Shown here piece by piece: positions 24,931-61,431 of a stretch of DNA of 64,000 bases. Every line of letters begins with the position of its first letter. The first letter of the stretch is position 1. The stretch lies in the NCBI GenBank assembly GCA_010093605.1, contig MU004183.1:1860001-1924000 (forward strand), written 5' to 3'. A program made the translations under genes and the position numbers. The notes below the pieces were generated by a model. That model made no database searches. It saw nothing but the letters and a program-made list of their open reading frames with translations, and had not been told where the DNA came from. The stretch is from Lophium mytilinum. Its lineage: Eukaryota > Ascomycota > Dothideomycetes > Mytilinidiales > Mytilinidiaceae.

Positions 24931-25257
24931 TTACACTCTCTGCCCGACCCGTCAGACGTGAAAAGCAGCGGTAGGAGCCCCTTGATGTGCCGTTAAGAAG
25001 ACTACATAGAACAAATTAGCCAACACAACACGCAGTCCCCTATGTAGTCTCCAGCTTCTCTACTCAGAACCCACCATGCTCAAACAGCAAACCCAAGAAC
25101 CAAGCCCAGCGTTTGATAGCCACTCCCCCGCACCATCCTCTCCGCTACTCGCACTTCCAGCCGAGTTGCGCTTGGAAATATGGAAACTCGTCTTAGGCGG
25201 CATCGTGATCGAAATCGGCCAAGAACACAAACCACGCATCCCCTCGCCAGCCGGCCA

Positions 25258-25263
25258 GGATCC
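25258..25263. repeat. Target-site duplication, left copy
   Basis: GGATCC immediately outside the left inverted repeat; the same 6 bp lie outside the right end at 29488..29493. The sequence is palindromic, so orientation is ambiguous. Confidence 0.75.
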
Positions 25264-25301
25264 GGGCAGGCCGATTGCGTAGGCCGATTGATCACGTGCT
25301 C
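25264..25301 (+). repeat. Left terminal inverted repeat (38 bp)
   Basis: Begins GGGCAGGCCGATTGCG. It holds two direct copies of AGGCCGATTG separated by CGT, then a CACGTG palindrome. It matches the reverse complement of 29450..29487 at every position. Confidence 0.95.
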
Positions 25302-25499
25302 TTGTAAACGAACTTAACCGAATTTTATGATTTTTATAAAATCATTAAATTAAACTTAACACTAATTAAATACAAATAACTACTAAATTACGCAGCGCCC
25401 TTTCTAAACTCTATAGCCTTAATATTCTAATATATACGCTTGCCCCTAGTAAATTTAGGGGACTTAGGCCCTTTAAAAGTAGCCGGGCGCTTTCTATTT

Positions 25500-28400
25500 T
25501 ACGCCATATTTTTTGTTATTTTTTTTGCCTTTCTATTCTATTTCTTTCTATTTAATAAGGGTTCTTCTATATAGTCCTTATTCTTATAGTTAGGCTTATT
25601 ATTATTAACGCTAAGAATTATCTTATCTAGGCCCTAATTATCTATTTTATTATACCTACGGTAAATTCTATTCGCACGGGTTAAATAAGGACCCCCCTTA
25701 ACTACGGCATGCCTAGAAGCTAGAGGGGGGGCGGGCGTAGGTAAGATTACCCGCAAAATAAGGTAAGAATCTCTATTAGAAGTGCCCTGCGGCGGCAGCT
25801 CGCTATCTAGGTAGTTAAAGAACGTTGCATTATTAATAACTTTCTTCTCCGCCTACCCTTCTTTTTCTTTATTATACCTTATAGAGTACTCTACCTTATT
25901 AGAAGGCTCTATAGCCTTAGCGGCGTTATCTACTATATTCTTATTATTCTTATCTAGCTTCTAAAGCTCCGTGTAGTTATATTATAATAGGTTAAATTAA
26001 GGTTAGTAAGCAGCCTTATAGGCGGCCTAAGTAGCTCTTTTCTTTTTAGCCTCCTTCTCTTTACGTACTATAATATTAGCTAAACTCTTAGCTAACTCTA
26101 CGCTAGTTAAAGCCCTCTAATTTACTTTACCGTGCTTCTTTATAGGTTGTAGATAATAAACTAATAAAGGCGGAATAGTAAACTCTATATTACTTAGTAC
26201 TAGCTGGAGTTTACCTTTCCTCTTTAAATATAAGGCAATTCGGCCCTCTAGCCCTTCTAACTTAGTAGCGATGTAGCTAATGTTATTATCTAGAAGCCTA
26301 TTAACTTAATTAATAAGGCGGAGAGCTATATTACGTATTCTATTAATTCTAATAGCCTAATTTAATACTAGATTACTCTCTATTATAATACTGTCTATAA
26401 AATAAGGCGCCTATTCTTCCTTAGCTATTACGTTCTATGCTAGCTTCCAGCGAGGGTAAATAAGGCCTAATAGAATAGCCTTGCCCGTAAGGACGCTTTA
26501 AGAGAGAAGATAGGGGTATAGAAGACTAAATTAGCAAGAATTATTATACTTATAATTAGATAGAGACTAATCTTTATCTATATATAAAGCTAACGTAGCT
26601 AATAATATATCCTTAGCCTTGCGGAGTAAATTAAATACCCTCTTAAGTATAAAGTGCGTGATTTTCCCGTTTAATTTAATAAAGTAATAGCTAAAATAAT
26701 TAAGTATAATCTTTCTTAGAAGTGCAATCTTATATAAATATTTCTTGGCCACTAACTTACTAAATAGAATATTTACCTACGCCTGCAAATTTTACACGCA
26801 CCCCTTAAAACTTAATTAGGGGTTTATAAAGTACTTTAAGGCGTAATTTATACCTTTAAAATGTGTAGAGCCGGCTACGCTAAGATTTAAAAGCTTTCTA
26901 GCGAGGTGTAAGTTAAGAAAGTTAAATAAAAAAATAAGATAAGGCTAGTAGTATAACGGGTACGCCGCTTATAATATAATATACGTAGGGCGTGCATAGA
27001 CTACCCTTATATATTTTTAGTTTATAGTAAGTATATAGGTAAAAATAGGTAGACTATAGGGCCTTATATATAAGCTTGCGCCTACCTATATATAAGATTA
27101 ATATAGAAGGCGTGCTAAGTATGCCTCTATATACTAAATCCTTATAATATACCTATCTTTAACACGCGCGGAGTATATAGATAATAAAAATAATAGAAAA
27201 ATTTAAAAATATAATAAAAAAAGCTCTAAAACTTACTAGATATAGACTATTATTAAGTACTTCTCTTTAGCTACGTACGTGTTCTTAAACTAGGGCTTAT
27301 TAACCTCTTAGAGCTTATCTAGAATTATTTTATAATTTTTTTTAAGGTTCTCTATAGTTAATAACTTTATATATAGCTAGAATAACTTCTTTACCTCTAT
27401 ATAATGTGTAGTAGTATAGCCTTTACCTTTAGTAACGCCCTTATTAATTTACTTCTTTATTACCTTTACTCCGTGCTACTAATAGAGCTAGAGAATAACG
27501 CTAAGAAACTACCCCTATAGCAGTACGGCCCTTAACCCTTTTCTAAAGTTAGCTATAATTACTTTAGGCCTATAATCTTTAGGCTAAATAGAACCCTCTA
27601 TATACTCTAATATAAAGCTCTAGAAAACAGCGTCCTTCTTCTTTTAAAGGGAGAATATAGCTAGAAAGAAGCAGTTTATATTAGATACGCCGGTAATAAT
27701 TCTAAGCTTTAATTTAGCCTAATTTATATTAAAAGTAGCGTTTATTTAGCAGTAATAATTAGTAATAAATCTCTAGCTAAAGGCCTCTATATTCTTAGTC
27801 TAGAAGACTATTTACTAGAGATTATAGGCTATATATTTACCCGTGCGTAGATTAACTTTATATATATATTATAAGCGGTATTTAAAGCCCGCGGTATAGA
27901 GGTAGAGCTCTAGGGTAGAGAGGGCGTTCTCCTTTATACGCCGGTTAGATAGAAGAGTACGCAGGTCTCGGGCTAGGTTATAGTACTTTCTTTTTAATAT
28001 ACTTAGCTCTTAGAGGTTTAATTAACGCCTAGTAGTCTTATATATTTTACCTATTCTTTATAATTTAATTACCCTCTCTATAGCCTTATAGGCCTCTAGC
28101 TAGCAATCTTAGTAGTAAATATATATAAATGGATTTAGTATTATTCCGTAAGCCTTATTATCTTCCTCTAAGTATTTTCTATAGTAATCCGGGCACGTAA
28201 TTATAGAAATCTAGGCTATTTCCGTGCGGCCTTTATATATTTATTTCTAACTAATATATATACTCTATAAGCAATTAAACTTACCTATAATAGTCCCCTC
28301 CTTCTACTAACTACCCTTCTACTTTAATTTACTTAATTAGTAATAGTTCCGGGTTTCTAAACTATAGTGTTTACACGCTATATAGATTACCTAAACTTTT

Positions 28401-28540
28401 AATACCTTAGTACTAGATCTAGAGTCTCTAACTACTAGAAAGCCTTTAAAAAAGAAGTAATCTATATAGCGCTTAACGCCTTCCTCCTATAAGTTAAACT
28501 TCTCGCCCTTAACGGGCTCTAGAAGGTAGTAAGCGGGCAT
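25500..28540 (-). pseudogene. MULE transposase, inactivated by RIP-type mutation
   Basis: Reading the minus strand from an ATG at 28540, many TAA/TAG stops interrupt otherwise coherent family blocks. About 28350-28380 gives CKHYSLETRNYYQL, like the Cys/His N-terminal domain of FAR1/MULE proteins. About 27510-27740 gives a LKLRIITGVSN block followed by KVIIANFRKGLRAVL and LQLYQQHGVKVIKK, matching the DDE core of MULE transposases, with Asp positions changed to Asn. About 26630-26700 gives NGKITHFILKRV. About 26430-26540 resembles a SWIM zinc motif ending LIYPRWKLA. A coiled-coil-like tail follows to about 25700. End points are approximate, and 26800-27240 is hard to align and may contain an intron or another insertion. 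Confidence 0.75.
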
Positions 28541-29449
28541 TTAATTAATTACTTTTTATATAGGGGCGATAAGATTTAAATATAACTAGACGTCTAGAAT
28601 CTAAATACGGCGCCGCGGAGGTAGTATAAGAGAGCCTAATTATAGCTATAGTTTATCTAAAAAGGGGCGTATAGGTCCAGGAGTATAGCATTAAGAATTA
28701 ATAAAGTTATAGTATTTTTAAGTAGGTAATAACTTAATAGATTATAGAAGTAGAGGAAACTTATTAGAGTGCCCGGGCGGACTACTTTTAGTATAAATAG
28801 TAGGGGTAGAAGTTCTTAGAGGTATAAAACTAGAGCCCTATATACTTAGCTAATAAAAGAGAATATATAGAGGTGTAAGAGGGGTTAATTTAATTAGAAT
28901 TAGCCTCTCTTTATAGCTAGGCGTATAGCTATATAGCTATATATAACGCTAAATAATATAGGCAGGCTAAATAGAGGGCTAATTAAAATGGGAAGGCTAT
29001 ATAGAAGGCTGCATAAATAGTAAGTATAGTAATAGAACTATATAAAGTAGTAGAGAAGGCCTTTTAATTAAAGATTTATATAAAGAAAGAGGGCTTTCTT
29101 TATTATTTAATAATAGATTAGACATTATAAATGTAGAGAATAGATAGAAAATAAAGATAGAAGAGAGAGAAGCTATTTAATATTAAAATTAATAAAATTA
29201 GTAAGGATTTCTATAATAAATACACCTATACGGGCGCGTTAAGGGCGCAGTTCCCCGCTGTTAATTAATAACGCATTCTTGCAGCTAACTAACTAAAAAC
29301 ACGCTAGATATAATGCGCGTACATGTAGCTATTAATTTATTGTATTAGATTAAAGTTGCGACAATTATTAGTGGAGTTGTGATTTTTTGTATAGGGCTAT
29401 TCTAACGTGGCCGTGTTTTAATTTTGTGAAGTTCATAATATAGGCGAGC

Positions 29450-30534: not shown

Positions 30535-33503
30535 TCAGATCTGCCATCTAACCTTCTCACTCCGCAGAGTCTTCAGCAAGCCCACCACAAGCACCTTCCG
30601 CTCGCTCACAGCCAGTTCACCGAACTTATCGTACATCTCGTCGCAGTGCTGCTGCACCATCCACTTCCAGTACGTCGACAGTTTCGTCCAATCGTTGCCG
30701 AATCCCTTGCTCCAACCCTCACGCGGGAGCTCCTTCAGGCCCGCCTTGATCTTGACAGAACCGGGGGTGTCGCCTTGCTCCGGCGCCGTCTTCAGGAATT
30801 TGTAGGCCTGGTAGAGGGCCCTGCTTGTCTCCTCGCGATTCTTGACATACTCGTTGAAGGGGATGAATGGCTTGACGGACTTGTTGAAGCGTTGGCGAGC
30901 CTCCATGAACGCCTTCTTGTCGGCCTCGTAGTCTAGCTTCTCTTGCTCCTCTGCAGCCGTGATCTTGTCTCCCGGATTCTTTAGGCAGAAGCGACGGACG
31001 AGCAGGAGGTCAACGAATGGATTGTGAATCTCAAGGCAGCCGAGTTCGACGGGAAGGTAGATGAAGCCGGCTGGAACGTCCTCGATATTGTATTGCTCCT
31101 TGATTCGCTCCCGCAGGTACTCCACGATGTTACCCTTCGCGCTCGGGCGATCAGACAGGATTCCATCGATGATACGGCGATAAGCCTTGAGGATCATATT
31201 GACATGGTCGACCCCGAAGCAGTGCGCTGGGTGCGCGAAGTTGCTGCCTAGGAATCGGCTGAAGCTGTTCCATGCCTGGATCCAGGCGAGGATGCTCCGA
31301 CAGGCACCAAGATGCTTCTTGACTTCCTCGACGTAGCCATTGACCTTGTCCTCGTCAATGACCCACTGGCCTTTCGCTGGATCGAGGTAAAGAAGTCCGA
31401 AGCGAACACGTCCTTTAGGAAGGATTGATCCTGCCGTAGACAACGGCGACGGAGCTACAACTTCAGAGCCGGTCTTGCCCATGTTCAAATCCATGCCCAT
31501 GACCTTGGAGAATTTCTGAATCTCCCTCCAGGCCGTCACGCAGACGGCTTCCTCTCCCCATACCCATAGATCGTCGTGAAGTCGGTAGAGATTGGCTCCA
31601 TGCGTCTCCTTGTTCACCGCAAAGTCGAGGCAGAAAAGAATTGCCTCGCCCATCATATCGCTTAGCTGGTGACTGTCTGGTACGCCGCGCTGACGCACAC
31701 GACGCTCCTCTTCCATTGGTATGGTGGCATCTAGACGGAATGCAAGAGGGCAACCAAGAAAGACCTTGAAGAAGTTGAGCCATTCAGGGGAGACTCCGAG
31801 GTACTGAAGGACGGTAAAAATCGTCGCATGAGGTAGGGACGGTCCGAAGGACTTGAAGTCGGACTGCAAGATCGTGAACGGCCGCTGCATCTGCGCGGAG
31901 ATGAGCATCTCGGTGGTAGCGGTACGCAGGAGCGACTGCTTGACAGCAAAGGAGGTGTTTAGATCATCTTGTCCCGCGCCGCCGAAAGCTCCGCCAATGG
32001 TGGCCTTGTTGTGAGTGGCCTTGCTACTGCTCGCTGAGCTGTCGTCTGGCTCGTCCTTGTACTCTTGTGCGCCTTCCTTCATCGAATTCGGTAGCTGTGT
32101 CATGAAGTAGGCCGCCTGGTACTCTTTGAGTCGGGCGCTTCGGAGGTTCTCCGTGGCATTCCTAGTCAGCCAAACATGTCGATAGGCTTTGGGATCCTCG
32201 GGCTCGCCTTTGCGAGATGGTTGGGCCCATGCGCTGGCCTTGAACTCATTCAAGCACTTCTTCAAGTACATGGCCCAGCTAAGACCAACGAACTGCAGCA
32301 GGATTGCTTCGTGGGTGTCTTCGTCCATGTATGCCCGAATCTTCCCATTCAGGTTTTTGCGTAGATCTGGAATGGCGATGAAGTTAGCATGGTTCTGTGC
32401 AGTCTTTTGAAAGCTTGCGGAGACCACGCATCACTAGTCTGTAGACGCTTCTGTACCACTATCTGAGGTGGCCCAACGAGGTGACTGGTTGTTCAAAATT
32501 GATTCGTTCACAGTTTTGACCTTGTATTGGGGTACCCTTGACGGTGGCAAGACATCGTACACAGACTGAGAGCTTTGGATTGTCCATCTGTATCGGGGGT
32601 TTACTCACCGATAAAGACCGGCGAATATTTCCACTTCCAAGTGCTTATCGACTCCAGGTCCATGTTGAGTGAATCAGCCAACTCGCTATCCGAAACAGTT
32701 AGCTTGTTGAACGAGGCGATTGATCCCAATGGATAGCCTTACTCTAGCACATCTGACCGCTTCTTCAGCTCAACCAGAGACTGTCGCTTGTCACCCGAGA
32801 AAAGGTCGTTCTTGAGCAGGCTATCTATACACCATCGGATCGATTGCTTGTCTAGGGTCTCCTTGATCTTGAAGTTCTGAAGTTGCTTCTGAAGGACAGC
32901 GAGTGCCTTTCCACGCCTCGAGTGAGGCTCGAAAAGCTTCTCGAGATAGCCCTTGACGTCACTGCTGGATACGTTGCCGTCGTAGAAAGCTAACGCCTCC
33001 CATTCCTTTCTCTGCCGGCTCATCTCTTCCACCACGGCACCGTCCACGAAGAACTCATCATTTGAGATGATCAACAGGCTGTCTTCTTGCTTGATTGTAG
33101 AAGAAGAAGCAGCTCCAGCCGCTGTAGGGTTGGGATTGTCATTCCAGTCCGACACGAGTTGACCAAAGAGACCAGCGAATTCATACTTAGAGCCTTGAGT
33201 TTCCAGAATGCCTTCAACCTGAGTCCGCAAGGCCTTGAGCTGAGTGTCAGAGATAGAAGAGTCAAACAAGGACTGTTGGAGGTATGCTGGGACGCTGATC
33301 AAACGACGTTCCTTGTGGATTCCGAGTTTCTTTCCTAGTCCCTCAATGAGCTTTCTCAGCTTGTCAGCTTCAGTAGATCCTTGGTTGACGTCATCAATGA
33401 TGCTCTTGCGATGAGCTGCGAACTGTGCTTGGCTCTGCTTGAGCTTGCGCAGCTTGGTCTTGGCGATGTCTTCCAAGGTAGAGGCGAGCAGAGGAGGACT
33501 CAT
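30535..33503 (-). CDS. rvt: Reverse transcriptase-related cellular gene (rvt family)
   Basis: Three exons on the minus strand, 32743..33503, 32609..32685 and 30535..32366, give 889 aa. Residues 1-80 are coiled-coil-like (MSPPLLASTLEDIAKTKL). The second exon gives ELADSLNMDLESISTWKWKYSP and joins in phase to DLRKNLNGKIRAYMDEDTHEAI, a continuity typical of fungal rvt proteins. The RT core keeps motif A (ILQSDFKSFGPSLPH, Asp449) and motif C (YRLHDDLWVWG, Asp544-Asp545), followed by MGMDLNMGKTGSE. No endonuclease, gag, LTR or target duplication accompanies it. rvt genes are single-copy, non-mobile RT relatives with protein or terminal-transferase-type activities described in fungi; the cellular role is unresolved. 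The uninterrupted frame and conserved Asp residues indicate selection. Confidence 0.85.
32461..32520. repeat. Dispersed repeat copy 2 (inside rvt intron 2)
   Basis: TCTGAGGTGGCCCAACGAGG followed by TTCAAAATTGA and CAGTTTTGA. It closely matches the copy at 33701-33762. The host intron is 242 bp, several times longer than most introns in this window. Confidence 0.65.
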
Positions 33504-34463
33504 GTTGAGATCTTGCAGAGAGGCAGCGAGTCAATGAGTTCTGCAGTGTTAGTGAGTGATGTTGGCCACCTCGGGCCAGTTGAAGTGATTGGAAGAGAAT
33601 GGTGGAGGAGGAAGGTTTGAGCTGTCGTGGAGCTGGAGGTAAATAGAGCAGGAGCAAACCTGGCCTAACTCCAATAGGAACGCTAGCCTAACGGGGTCCA
33701 GTACTTTCTGAGGTGGCCCAGAGGGCTATCAGCTTTGTCAAAATTGACGTTTGCAGTTTTGAATTAACGTACCAGAGGATCTCGAGCAGAGTTAGCTAGG
33801 TGTACACAAGCTTAGAGTGAGGGTATCTCTCAAGAATATGATTGAGACAAAGTCTCGGATTCGTGGACTGCTTTGTCCAAGGGAGCCTAGCAGTGAGTTG
33901 AGAGTGAGACGGAGAGACTGACAATTTAAGGGAACTATCCTCCGGACTTATGCATTTTGACCCAAACAAGATGTTTACGAAACTTCTAGGAGCCGCAAGA
34001 AGCGACGAGAGTTTATACGAACCAGCAAAAGAGGACGAAGAGTAACGCAAGGTGGGACAGCCGTTCCCAACTTCGTTTCTGTGATCTTTGTTAGGAGACG
34101 ATGGTAGTACTTTCAGTGTACAGATTCTAGTAACTTCGAAGAACTTGAGTCATCATATTTGTCGCAGAACTGACTTACTTGGGAGCAAGCAGCAGGATTC
34201 ATGGTGTCCTGAGATGAACATACCTCCGCAAATATCAAACAGCGCTTGTTTGGCAGAGCTTCGAATTGGTTGTGAGTCTTTAATTCCTGTCACTCGACTA
34301 TCCAACCTAGACCGTGATCCCAGCCCCAGTCCCTTTCCCTATGAGAAAGGAGAGAAAAATATCACCATACTCATGTACTGACACCCACGACATGTGAGTA
34401 TCGCAAAGTGAACCCACATGGTTTCGATTTAGTAAGGTCAGTTGTTTCCTTTAAGCGTCGACC
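33504..34463. other. rvt upstream region, no supported gene
   Basis: Contains the rvt promoter and the 3' region of the codirectional cyclase-family gene. A dispersed repeat copy lies at 33701-33762. Short frames show no family resemblance. Confidence 0.45.
33701..33762. repeat. Dispersed repeat copy 3 (rvt 5' side)
   Basis: TCTGAGGTGGCCCAGAGGGC followed by GTCAAAATTGACG and GCAGTTTTGA, matching the intron 2 copy, including a short upstream segment GTAC..CT. Confidence 0.65.
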
Positions 34464-38055: not shown

Positions 38056-40659
38056 CTAAATGATCGTGATGGTATCGGTTTCGAACCCTTCCAAGCCCTC
38101 TCCCCAGAGCCGGTAGAAGAGTCCGACGCGACGGTAGTACCCTTCACGCACAGGCACCAAGAGCAGTCCTCTCATAGGATTTTCCACGACAACAAGAGCC
38201 CAAACATAGGACCACCCATATTCATCCACGGGAAGTTTCTCGTCTGCATCGCCTTGAGCGCGTCCAATGTGAGTAGCATTCGTCGGATCCTCTATGGTTG
38301 CGACTTCAATAAGACGCTGCCTTGTTGTGCCACATTTGAAACGTTTCATGAGTCCTTGTATCTTGAGGTAGGCCGACAGGGTTGGGTTGAGAGCGCCGTA
38401 TGGCGCGTCTAGTGATGCTGGCGTAGCCCGGCAATCGATTACTATAGCTGGATCTGAGAAAGAGGTTGGGCACCATTTGTAGCTGACCTCGCCATCAACC
38501 GCTGCCCACGACCAGGAGGGAGCGCGGTGGACAGTCGGCCTCGAGATGTCAGATCGTGCAGAGCTCCATAGCAAGTCTTTCGGCAAGGCAGACTTCCAAA
38601 GGCCAGCGAGATAGTCGCTCTGGTACACAGCACCAAAATCCGCGGCAACGCCAGAGATAGCGGGGAACTTGTCTCCTGGAAACGTCAGGAAGCGCCGCGT
38701 GTAATCACGGAGGGTTGATCTCCATGAATCTAGGGAGAACTGCTTGTTCTGGGACTGGTCGGTACTGACGTCCATTGGCTCGTCGTCTAAAGAGGTTTTA
38801 GTGCTTCCGCAGATCCACCAGACGTCTTCGGAACCGTAGTCAAGAATTCGTGGGGATAGAATGTGTTCTGAAAGAGTCCATGCTCTCAGACTGATCGGGT
38901 TTTTCTCAGGTGTATATCGATGCGGCTCCTCTATGAGGATCGATCCCGACTTTCCCGCTGGCGTCTCGAATGGCAGCTTCATACATGTCTTTGATACCGA
39001 GGGTCTGGGCTGCAAGAAACCCTCTTGCACGTTTCTAGCACTAGATGCTGATATCGTGATATATGCTTCCTGGAAGATACTTGGCATCTTCCCAATCTCT
39101 CTCGAGACGTCTTCCGGGTCATCTTGGATGATGCACTTTAAAGGTCAGCACTGACTCGGATAGCTCAGCAAAAAGGGGTTCGCTACTGACTATGCAATCA
39201 ATCCAAATGTAACGTATTCCCAATTTGTTTGCTACAACCATTGCGTCCTGGAGTGTTTGGGGAAACCAGGAGAAACGGATACCATCCGTGAAATCCTGGA
39301 CGGTTGAACTAGTGCTCTTGATAGGTGGCTCACCGCCCCAACAGTACGATAACGCGGCGTATTGGCCGACTTCATTTTCCTCTGTCCAGTGCAGCCGTAC
39401 GAATGATATTGGTTGCTTGGTACCTATGTCAATGACCCTTGAAGGCATAACGCCTCTCGGCTTGGGACATCTCTCATGATCTTCATGGCACGCCTTCAGC
39501 GAAATTCGCGCCCTTTCAATAATGGCATCTGGAGACATGTCTGAGTTGCTTGGTCGATCGTGGATGTGGGCGGCAGCTGGGTCATCTATTACAATTAGCT
39601 AACGTCCTGTCAGGATGATCGACAATAGAAAGATAGACATAAAGAGTAGCACACTCAACAAGTAACCTGTGCACACCTGTTTGCTACTACTTGAAGAGCT
39701 TTAACAAGTTTCCGCATAGCCCAAAGCTAAGAGCCCATATTTTTGAAGCGCATTGAAGCACCACAAGCAGCGGCATACAAGTACACTCGGCCGTGGAAAG
39801 ACAAAACGGTTGCTGAGTGTGCCACCCTTCCATGCCCGAGATGCAAAGCCTGACTGAATTACTAGTGAGGAGATACCCCCATGTGATAAAATAAGAGAAT
39901 GAAGAGCTCACCACTGGTTGTGGTTATCCTGAATGGACCTTTTGGTACATTCATCTCATAATGTTTAATGAATATCGGGTAGCTTTCTTTCTCTTTCACA
40001 TTCTTTGATTCCCACAATTGATCAACCAAAAATGGATCGATACTATAGCTGAGCCATAACCTTGCCCCACGGTTCAATGCAGAAATAAACCTGTGGTCGG
40101 AAAGTTGGAAGTGTATGTCCAAGCCGTCGTCGAAGGAGATGTATTCAAGGTTCTTGACCGCCCTACCTCCAGACGTCTGATGGTACTCGGGATGTCTTGA
40201 GACATACATTTTTGAGACATCTGCCCTCAGTCGATCCATGCCCTTGTCTAGCAATTCCATGACCCAGAGGAACAGAACGCACTGCTCTGCGTACCCACTC
40301 AGGACGTCCTCTTTGCTGCATCGAAGAGACGATCTGTGGTTCTTGAGGGAATACCTTTCATCCGTTGAGGACTGCCTGATTACCAGTCTTTGACAGTGGC
40401 TGCAAGAATGAGGGCCATCTCTCTGAGGGGGAGAAGATACTGGTAGATTCTCTGGTTCGTGAGATAAGCGTCTCATGCCTCGAGCAATGTACTGGGCCAC
40501 CGCAGTCTTATCGACATCCCGCAGTTGACTGAATGATGAAAGGACTCCTGAGATAGTGGGAGTTGCGCTATTCGGTGCGATGGAGGCATTGACCGAGCCA
40601 TCCAGGGTCATGGAATCTTCGGTATCCATCATGTCCCAGGTAGAAGTAGTCTCGGACAT
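38056..40659 (-). CDS. HET-domain (heterokaryon incompatibility-type) protein
   Basis: Three exons on the minus strand, 39912..40659, 39191..39585 and 38056..39135, give 740 aa. The first junction yields TTTSDDPAAAHIHDRPSNSD, the usual linker before the HET domain; the second yields WIDCICIIQDDPEDVSREI. The HET domain spans about 325-475: YAALSYCWGG, TLQDAMVVANKLGIRYIWIDC, and ISASSARNVQEGFL. The N-terminal part has a CSHC motif (CSHCQRLVI). Proteins of this type trigger or modulate non-self recognition and programmed cell death; no partner NLR or HET gene lies beside it. The first intron is long (326 bp). The gene ends 66 bp from the convergent four-TM gene. Confidence 0.85.
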
Positions 40660-58993: not shown

Positions 58994-61431
58994 ATGGACG
59001 GATCGCACCACTCGCGCGCCCCGTCGCGAGCGCCTTCGCGAGGACCACCCCCTAATCGGGCGGTGTCGAGGTCGCGGGCGGCAGAGTCGAGGCCGCCGCG
59101 GAATGCGGAGGCGGGGTATAAGCGGTTGATTGTTGCGTGTGATGGTATGTTTCCCCTTTTCACCCTTTTCCTCCATTCGGTAGGTAGTCATCTATCAAAC
59201 CTCGTTTCTATTGGCGCGAGGTGGGGATGCTGTTACTCAGGATGAGGGATGATGAGTGATGCGGAAAAGCGGACAGGGTTGGAGATTGGGGGACTTGGGT
59301 TACGGTTTGGGTTACATGGGATTTTTTCTGGATAGGGCTGACGTGTTTTATTTTTGTGGTGAACAGGCACGTGGTTGAATGCGGATAATGGGCTTATCAA
59401 TGGCAAGCTGTCGATACCGAGTAACGTGACGCGGATTTCGAGGGCGATTCGGCCGGTGAGTATGGATGGGGTGCCGCAGATTGTGTATTATCATTTTGGG
59501 GTGGGTGCGAAGGGGGGCGTGGTGGATCGGGTTGTTGGAGGTGAGTTAGTGTTTCATTGGCTGCGTGGTTGTTTTGAGTTCTGCCTCATGATTCCGTCAG
59601 TTTCTGGTTCAATCCTGAATTTCTTTTTCGTGCCACGTATCTTGTAAGAGCAGATGGCTTGGATAGAAGCTAACCAGTGGGCGAGCAGGCGCTATAGGCG
59701 AAGGCGTGGGAGAGAATGTCAGGGAAGGGTACTCGTTCCTATGCAACAACTGGGCGCCTGGGGATGAGATCTTCTTGATAGGCTTCTCAAGAGGCGCCTT
59801 CACGGCAAGAAGTATTGGAGGGCTGGTGGGACAGATTGGATTACTGACCAAGAAGGCGCTGGGAAGTTTGGCAGAGGTCTTCACGGACGTCCAGCATAGA
59901 CGCGACCCCCATTATCGCCCGAAGTACCCAGATGTTCCTTTTCCGGACAAGCCGAGCGCGGACGATCCTTACTATGCAGAAGAATTAGGCCGAGTAAGTA
60001 GATTTTGGTCCCAAAACCTGCTTCAGGGTTGCTGATGTATGTCAGAGAGGTCTTTCGCGTCTGAATATTCCCATCAAAGCAATTGCGGTATGGGATACTG
60101 TGGGTCGGTAACTCTAGCCCCCCTTCCTCCTCCTCTAAACGTTCGCAGGGTCGCTCGGAATGCCCCGTATCCCCCTACTAACACGACTGCGCCTCCAAGA
60201 CCCAGAGTCCAAACACATGGCATTTTACGACACCAAGCTGTATAATTGTACAGAAAACGCTTTTCAAGCGCTCGCTTTAGACGAGCGCCGAGCGGCCTTC
60301 TCCCCTGCCGTCTGGGAGAAGCCAGAGGGCAATCGGACTACGCTACGCCAGGTCTGGTTTCCAGGCGTGCATAGCAACGTTGGTGGTGGGTATGATGATC
60401 AGCAGCTGGCGAACATCACGCTAGCGTGGATGATGGCGCAGCTGGAGCCTTTTCTGGATATGCGCATGCAGTACGTGCTGGAGCAGGATGAGGAGAATGA
60501 GGAGTATTACCGCAAGCACCGGGAACGGGAAAGGCCGTGGTCGTTTGGTATGTTTGATATTAGTCTCTTTTCTACCATCTTCCCTTCCATTTCTTACTCT
60601 GCCCCTTTACTACAATTATTGAAGGAAACATTCCATTCAAGCACTGCTCCTTCTTTAAACGCCAACGAGCATCTTCTAACGCTCCTAGGCGAGCTCTACA
60701 ACAGCATGTCCGGCATCTACGCTATAGGCGGCGGTACAACGCGCACGCCAGGCACCTACTACGCCGTCGACCCCGACACGGGCCGCGCGACCTCCCGCCC
60801 GCTCCACGACACGCACGAGTACGTCCACCCGTCCGCGCGGACACGCCTCCGTCTCGGCGGGCCCGGCGTCGACGACAAAGGCGTCTACGAGTGCCGCGCG
60901 CTGACAGACAACTGGCGCCTCGTCGTCGACTACAACAACTCCGCCGAAGTCGACGTCTTCTGGAAACTGAAGAACAGGGACCGGAAGGTCAGCACGAGGG
61001 TGCTGCCGGAAGCACCGCTGTGGAAACTGGAACGGGAGCTCGCGATGACGGATCCGAAGACTTACGATTACGTGATTAGGCCGCCGCCAACGGGGGCGAA
61101 GCGGAAGAGTGGGCGGAGGAGTAGTCGCGTCGGGAGTCCGGTTGTGGAGCATGGTGGGAGGAGGAGTCGGGTGGGGAGTCCTATGGTGGATCATGGGAAT
61201 GGGCGCAGGAGTCGTGGGCCGAGTCCGAGTGTGGAGTATGGTAATGGAGTCGTGCTTGAGGAGGCTAGTGCGTTGGGAGTTGTGCGGAAGAATAGGGAGG
61301 GTAGGAGGAGGAGAAGCTTGGAAAATGTAGGGCCGAGGGGGAGTAGGGCGAGAAGTGTGGAGGTGGATCCGGACTGGGGGAGGAGGGAGACGCCGAGGAG
61401 TAGTAAGAGGATGAGCCATGGTGGGCCTTGA
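58994..61431 (+). CDS. DUF2235 (T6SS phospholipase-like) alpha/beta hydrolase
   Basis: Six exons, 58994..59144, 59367..59540, 59689..59993, 60046..60103, 60149..60547 and 60689..61431, give 609 aa with all phases consistent. The DUF2235 domain runs about 42-400: YKRLIVACDGTWLNAD, YYHFGVGAKGG, the nucleophile elbow GFSRGAFTAR (Ser142), IKAIAVWDTVGSLGMPRIP, and RQVWFPGVHSNVGGGYDDQQLANITLAWM (His/Asp). The fifth intron (141 bp) is in frame and stop-free, but splicing gives WSFGELYNSMSGIYAI, the expected run. The exon 4 donor is GTCGGT. The C-terminal 110 residues are Arg/Ser-rich with repeated GSPxV(E/D)HG units. Probably a lipid or ester hydrolase; substrate unknown. Confidence 0.88.

Follow-up and report, generated by a model that had tools for sequence, protein, structure and literature searches.

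The window (the whole stretch of DNA analyzed, 64,000 nucleotides) carries on its minus strand a reverse transcriptase (RT) gene that is almost certainly an rvt gene, and it joins the known rvt kind as an additional member. Genes of this kind in fungi, bacteria and rotifers have reportedly been described by Gladyshev and Arkhipova. On balance we think it probable that the window gene is a functional cellular rvt gene of the RT_UG37 group and an ordinary host gene of an apparent filamentous ascomycete. Spliceosomal introns, RIP and HET domains are the signs of such a fungus.

The gene encodes an 889-aa protein in a reading frame that runs from an ATG at 33503 to a stop codon ending at 30535, with no internal stops. 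Its 2670 coding nucleotides, stop included, are spread over three predicted exons (761 + 77 + 1832), all on the minus strand. Exon 1 (32743-33503, start codon 33503-33501) encodes an N-terminal domain comprising residue 1 to part of residue 254, exon 2 (32609-32685) is 77 bp long, and exon 3 (30535-32366) contains the RT core with a variable insertion, a thumb-side region, a C-terminal region and the stop, where the domain names follow the order of the motifs and not a structure. Both introns are predicted from splice signals together with the reading frame. Intron 1 (32686-32742; 57 bp, GTAAGG...GCTAAC...GATAG) is in phase 2, and the frames of both paralogs described below continue straight through the aligned site; intron 2 (32367-32608; 242 bp, GTGAGT...TTCCAG) is taken up further on. 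Motif A, QSDF (31855-31866, residues 447-450), contributes Asp449, and motif C, HDDLW (31564-31578, residues 543-547), contributes Asp544 and Asp545; between them lies the motif B region, RGVPDSHQLSDMMGE (31645-31689, residues 506-520). The letters A, B and C follow RT nomenclature. Motif A is immediately preceded by a low-complexity variable stretch whose length differs among the paralogs. The preliminary description had claimed a complete frame with both catalytic motifs and two introns, and all of this holds, the introns as predictions.

The family assignment comes from the PADLOC RT_UG37 model, a defense-RT model of the DRT class, which matches residues 13-730 of the window protein over profile positions 9-656 of 778 with E=2.6e-54 and leaves the last 159 residues outside the match. 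Unlike the bacterial systems behind that model, the window gene is apparently fungal and spliced and has no bacterial defense-island context. The same model recognizes the paralogs on C2 (E=7.2e-68) and C12 (E=3.1e-45), and in a scan of the entire genome (43.2 Mb) at E<=0.1 it returned four stretches, all of them at the three rvt loci. Other defense-RT models are weak on the window protein, the best reaching E=4e-5. Among 14 control genomes, RT_UG37 matches at E<=0.1 occur in three (E. coli, Bacteroides ihuae and Methanosarcina acetivorans), the same three as for RVT_1, so weak hits to the model are not specific; the fungal matches lie in a different range altogether. We infer that RT_UG37 represents the bacterial rvt group. 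The literature matches listed for 'UG37' together with 'reverse transcriptase' were unrelated, judged by title and the start of the abstract.

RVT_1 does not match the window protein at E<=1, and a scan of the genome with this model listed 150 places (150 of the 173 first-look candidates were scored), none within the window. In Pfam nothing reaches its cut-off on the window protein or on either paralog, so that no endonuclease, RNase H or integrase is recognized. The traits of the family that are found in the window protein are the long RT_UG37 match, the three catalytic aspartates and the absence of a recognized mobile-element domain. Earlier, the gene had been described as an rvt-type cellular RT without LINE or LTR identity, and these homology searches bear out both points. 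Known rvt genes, in the portions of PMC5718144, PMC3520738 and PMC10680173 available to us, likewise have RT motifs without recognized mobile-element domains, match a bacterial RT-group profile and lie in non-repetitive DNA. The 'RVT' of PMC4920403 was set aside, as the available part of that paper applies the term to retrotransposon RT genes, a different meaning from rvt.

Searches for more distant relatives were negative. No relative of the window protein was found among viral contigs, bacterial genomes, plasmids and phages, where the contig scans relied on short, exactly matched peptide patterns, a method of low sensitivity, and neither an alignment of the three paralogs nor the C2 paralog as query found a bacterial, viral, plasmid or phage relative. 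The bacterial link therefore rests on one profile, RT_UG37. Sequence searches matched no solved structure, with a single hit at E=4.1 in one of them, and the best PHROGs match was at E=0.26. Structure prediction gave a pLDDT of 38.7 for the 609 aa of exon 3 and 45.6 for a 323-aa stretch with the presumed palm and thumb, a low confidence that we attribute to the lack of relatives. None of the 51 Foldseek matches to the 323-aa model had E<=0.001. The G2L4 RT ranked third among them at E=2.1, which is chance level, and an RT-like helix-hairpin order near motifs B and C of the predicted model was set aside at this pLDDT.

A protein search of the genome gave seven matches at three loci, namely the window gene, C2:711.4-714.4 kb and C12:703.7-706.6 kb. 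The C2 paralog is 981 aa long with one predicted 56-bp intron close to its 3' end, and the C12 paralog (C12:703748-706618, L017) is intronless and 956 aa long. Identity to the window protein is 33% for C2 and 26% for C12 over the full alignment and 39% and 34%, respectively, over the presumed palm and thumb. When the window protein was tested in four segments, with E-values computed for a single target sequence, every segment matched C2 (E from 1.2e-13 to 1.2e-83; 2e-25 for the N-terminal segment) and three clearly matched C12 (E from 8e-8 to 2.5e-59), whereas the fourth, fingers plus insertion, reached only E=0.006 against C12. Compared pairwise, the three coding sequences share no exact DNA match longer than 17 bp. 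The three loci are deeply diverged, so there has been no recent amplification. A gene present as the sole rvt copy had been proposed, and the copy-number check overturns this. rvt genes are also called single-copy in the available part of a 2023 meeting report (PMC10680173), a property reported as typical and not as strictly defining; it does not hold in this genome.

In the alignment of the three paralogs, only the window copy has the motif-A Asp and the motif-C Asp-Asp all unaltered. The C2 paralog has RSSF at motif A, with Ser for Asp, and YDDFW at motif C, whereas in the C12 paralog motif A reads QHDF and motif C reads RDEGW, with the second Asp replaced by Glu. The Ser call in C2 depends on how the region around motif A is aligned; two residues shared by all three rows, the Phe next to the site and a His nine positions further on, anchor that alignment. 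In contrast to the known rvt genes, there are three paralogs here and not a single copy, and catalytic residues are altered in two of them. The C12 paralog also has a proline-rich low-complexity stretch ahead of motif A.

According to the available part of PMC10680173, which names bacteria, fungi and rotifers, rvt proteins carry out non-templated polymerization, and stress relief needs intact catalytic residues. Given this published requirement and its sole unaltered catalytic set, the window gene would be the best candidate for the rvt enzymatic role in this genome. By analogy with published rvt work, its product would oligomerize and carry out template-free nucleotide addition, with a protein as the probable primer, and it would help the cell withstand stress, for example blocked protein synthesis or amino-acid starvation. 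We consider the chances about even that non-templated, probably protein-primed polymerization aiding stress survival is what this gene provides. The title of one paper reportedly names multimerization and protein priming for the rvt products of bacteria.

The altered residues of the paralogs also suggest a mixed complex, in which the window protein would be the catalytic subunit and the C2 and C12 proteins structural or regulatory partners. We regard this as unlikely, though it draws on several observations: all three genes keep long open frames (889, 981 and 956 aa) despite their low identity to the window protein, the catalytic changes are confined to C2 and C12, the related polymerases AbiK, Abi-P2 and DRT9 are trimers or hexamers according to the available part of PMC12483538, and a two-RT defense system is reported in the part of PMC13174585 at hand. 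However, the DE of the C12 paralog may still be catalytic, and the paralogs may simply do separate jobs. A division of labor among rvt genes is not described in the portions of the rvt literature examined, and it seems to us improbable that the three genes form one heteromeric machine with the window protein as sole polymerase and the ancient paralogs as scaffold or regulator. With a single copy catalytically complete and two that are altered but long preserved, the genome offers a natural experiment on what matters in the protein besides catalysis.

By profile, rvt genes are cousins of bacterial defense polymerases, and the window protein could defend the cell against mycoviruses or transposons as a DRT-like immune polymerase, perhaps one that copies a dedicated RNA. 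The best profile belongs to the defense-RT class, and weak hits on at least one of the three rvt paralogs come from the UG17, UG33, DRT9 and AbiP2 models. With AbiK, Abi-P2, DRT9 and DRT10, for which the available parts of PMC12483538 and PMC12632851 report protein-primed synthesis, the window protein shares weak profile similarity across the palm, but it has no strong or full-length match to them and the surrounding domains differ. The profile labels, moreover, are those of bacterial systems, no companion gene was seen, and the published rvt stress data, in the portions available, point away from an immune role. We consider an immune function quite unlikely.

RIP indices mark only four 1-kb bins of the window, from 25001 to 29000, as RIPped. 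These bins hold a dispersed repeat that adjoins the gene at a distance of about 1.5 kb and is not part of it; the segment 25800-29100 has copies on C22 (94%) and C5 (91%), plus six matches that are shorter or less similar. The rvt coding sequence itself shows no RIP signature (TA/AT 0.54; (CA+TG)/(AC+GT) 1.33). RIP requires long, highly similar duplicates, and with exact matches between paralogs of at most 17 bp the rvt gene is expected to escape it. The preliminary description had the gene escaping RIP as a single-copy gene beside RIPped DNA: the RIPped neighbor is confirmed, the escape would still be expected, and the single copy gives way to three loci.

Of the window's 59 open frames of at least 150 aa, a selection of 20 was scanned with Pfam, and 12 of these reached the cut-off or exceeded it: a cyclase, two HET pieces, an aldehyde dehydrogenase, two OPT-transporter pieces, a RabGAP-TBC protein, a GMC oxidoreductase, a DAO oxidoreductase, a methyltransferase, a GDS1 winged helix and a Tle1-like lipase. 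One of the remaining ORFs resembles an alpha/beta hydrolase below the cut-off, and seven have no match at E<=0.01. As none of the 12 matched ORFs belongs to a transposon family and RIP is limited to the four bins, 'transposon-rich' overstates the character of this segment, and nothing here shows the descent from a mobile element that 'domesticated' implies. The HET-domain (heterokaryon incompatibility) matches fall in two ORFs at 38056-39598, which puts them roughly 4.5 kb upstream of rvt. The Tle1-like phospholipase domain (PF09994, E=3e-27) lies in the ORF at 60139-61431, and its family is named after a bacterial secretion-system effector.

The nearby HET-domain gene and the frequent horizontal transfer that the available part of PMC10680173 ascribes to rvt genes would be compatible with a recent pseudogene or with the cargo of a giant transposon, but the reading frame is intact, and DUF3435, the giant-transposon captain, gives no match in the genome at E<=1e-5, a result of little weight because the search was equally silent in all 14 control genomes; we consider both very improbable. 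The idea of a LINE or LTR retrotransposon remnant next to other transposon debris, which the proximity of an RT gene to a RIPped repeat might suggest, is already contradicted by the RVT_1 results (no match of the protein at E<=1 and none of the 150 listed places in the window), the gene's freedom from RIP and the three deeply diverged loci, which are not a repeat family, and we give it next to no credence.

Intron 2 resembles an introner. A DNA search with its 242 bp found relatives on C5 (79%), on C13 in two pieces (82% and 81%) and on C18, where a 111-bp core matches at 86%. The relatives of window 32367-32608 on C5 and C13 are themselves predicted introns (C5:2060803-2061045 and C13:792470-792944); BLAST covers positions 1-236 of intron 2 for the C5 intron and, for the C13 intron, positions 1-158 and 167-236, and the final bases, including the AG, align with both in the multiple alignment. 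The C5 relative starts with the same GTGAGTAAACCCC, ends at CCAG and lies inside an ATP synthase alpha-like (ATP1-like) gene. The C13 relative interrupts a zinc-cluster-like transcription-factor frame and carries an extra ~230 bp; the names of both host genes are read from their translations. On C18 the match consists of the core alone, 3' of a glucanase-like reading frame, with no intron visible there. Neither the C2 nor the C12 paralog has an intron at the position aligned to intron 2. Because its relatives are introns of ATP1-like and zinc-cluster-like genes and both paralogs lack it, intron 2 appears introner-like, and it most likely entered the window gene after the paralogs split. An intron common to rvt, ATP1-like and transcription-factor-like genes is a modest example of intron spread that can be traced.

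The gene on C5 (L019) is predicted to contain a mini-exon of 8 nt, CACCGGCA, which is flanked by introns on both sides and lies just before the intron at 2804, the relative of intron 2. Including it restores the reading APF-TGT-SMGEWFRDNG, which presumably matches the conserved ATP1 protein.

The clear family members number three, and pattern searches gave no others. The exact GTGAGTAAACCCC 5' end occurs at four places in the genome against one for the reversed control, and at one mismatch there is no enrichment (115 places against 131). The fourth exact place, C1:1902285 in a histidine-kinase-like frame, shares the first 13-14 bases and short inner stretches with a best E=0.004 and is doubtful. 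A 3'-end pattern matches the three known introns perfectly and, at 2-3 mismatches, 40 more places; its control has 14 in total. Six additional candidate introns from the pattern lists were fetched and compared, and none is convincing. Similar introns across unrelated genes are likewise a feature of the ascomycete introner-like elements or sister introns in the available parts of PMC4457414, PMC8469720 and PMC9860276, the last of which, a survey, reports that introner families of ascomycetes lack terminal inverted repeats and target duplications; by eye, we also saw neither at the ends of these introns. In contrast to those elements, just three clear members are found here, each with an internal hairpin repeat that is related to a dispersed repeat. 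The predicted RNA fold of intron 2 has z=-2.42, with two of 200 shuffles as good, and that of the ATP1-like intron plus 5 nt of exon has z=-4.07, with none of 200 as good.

The internal hairpin of intron 2 is a 96-bp core (32454-32549, minus strand) with TGCCACTGTC-like inverted ends. Its 16-base end occurs at 28 places in the genome at no more than one mismatch, against one for the reversed control. An inverted partner lies within 700 bp at 15 of these 28 places, at about 96 bp in six, 128-129 bp in eight and 354 bp in one, and none was found at the other 13; this pairing allows up to four mismatches per end and has no shuffled control. The internal inverted repeat may be an old small transposon that has been carried along. 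The dispersed hairpin repeat has TGCCACTGTCAGGGGT-like inverted ends and is mostly about 96 or 128-129 bp long (for example at L021, L029 and L044). A short dispersed repeat with relatives on C1, C7, C18 and C20 (76-81%) also lies in the 5' flank of the rvt gene, at 33696-33837, and partly resembles the intron-2 core.
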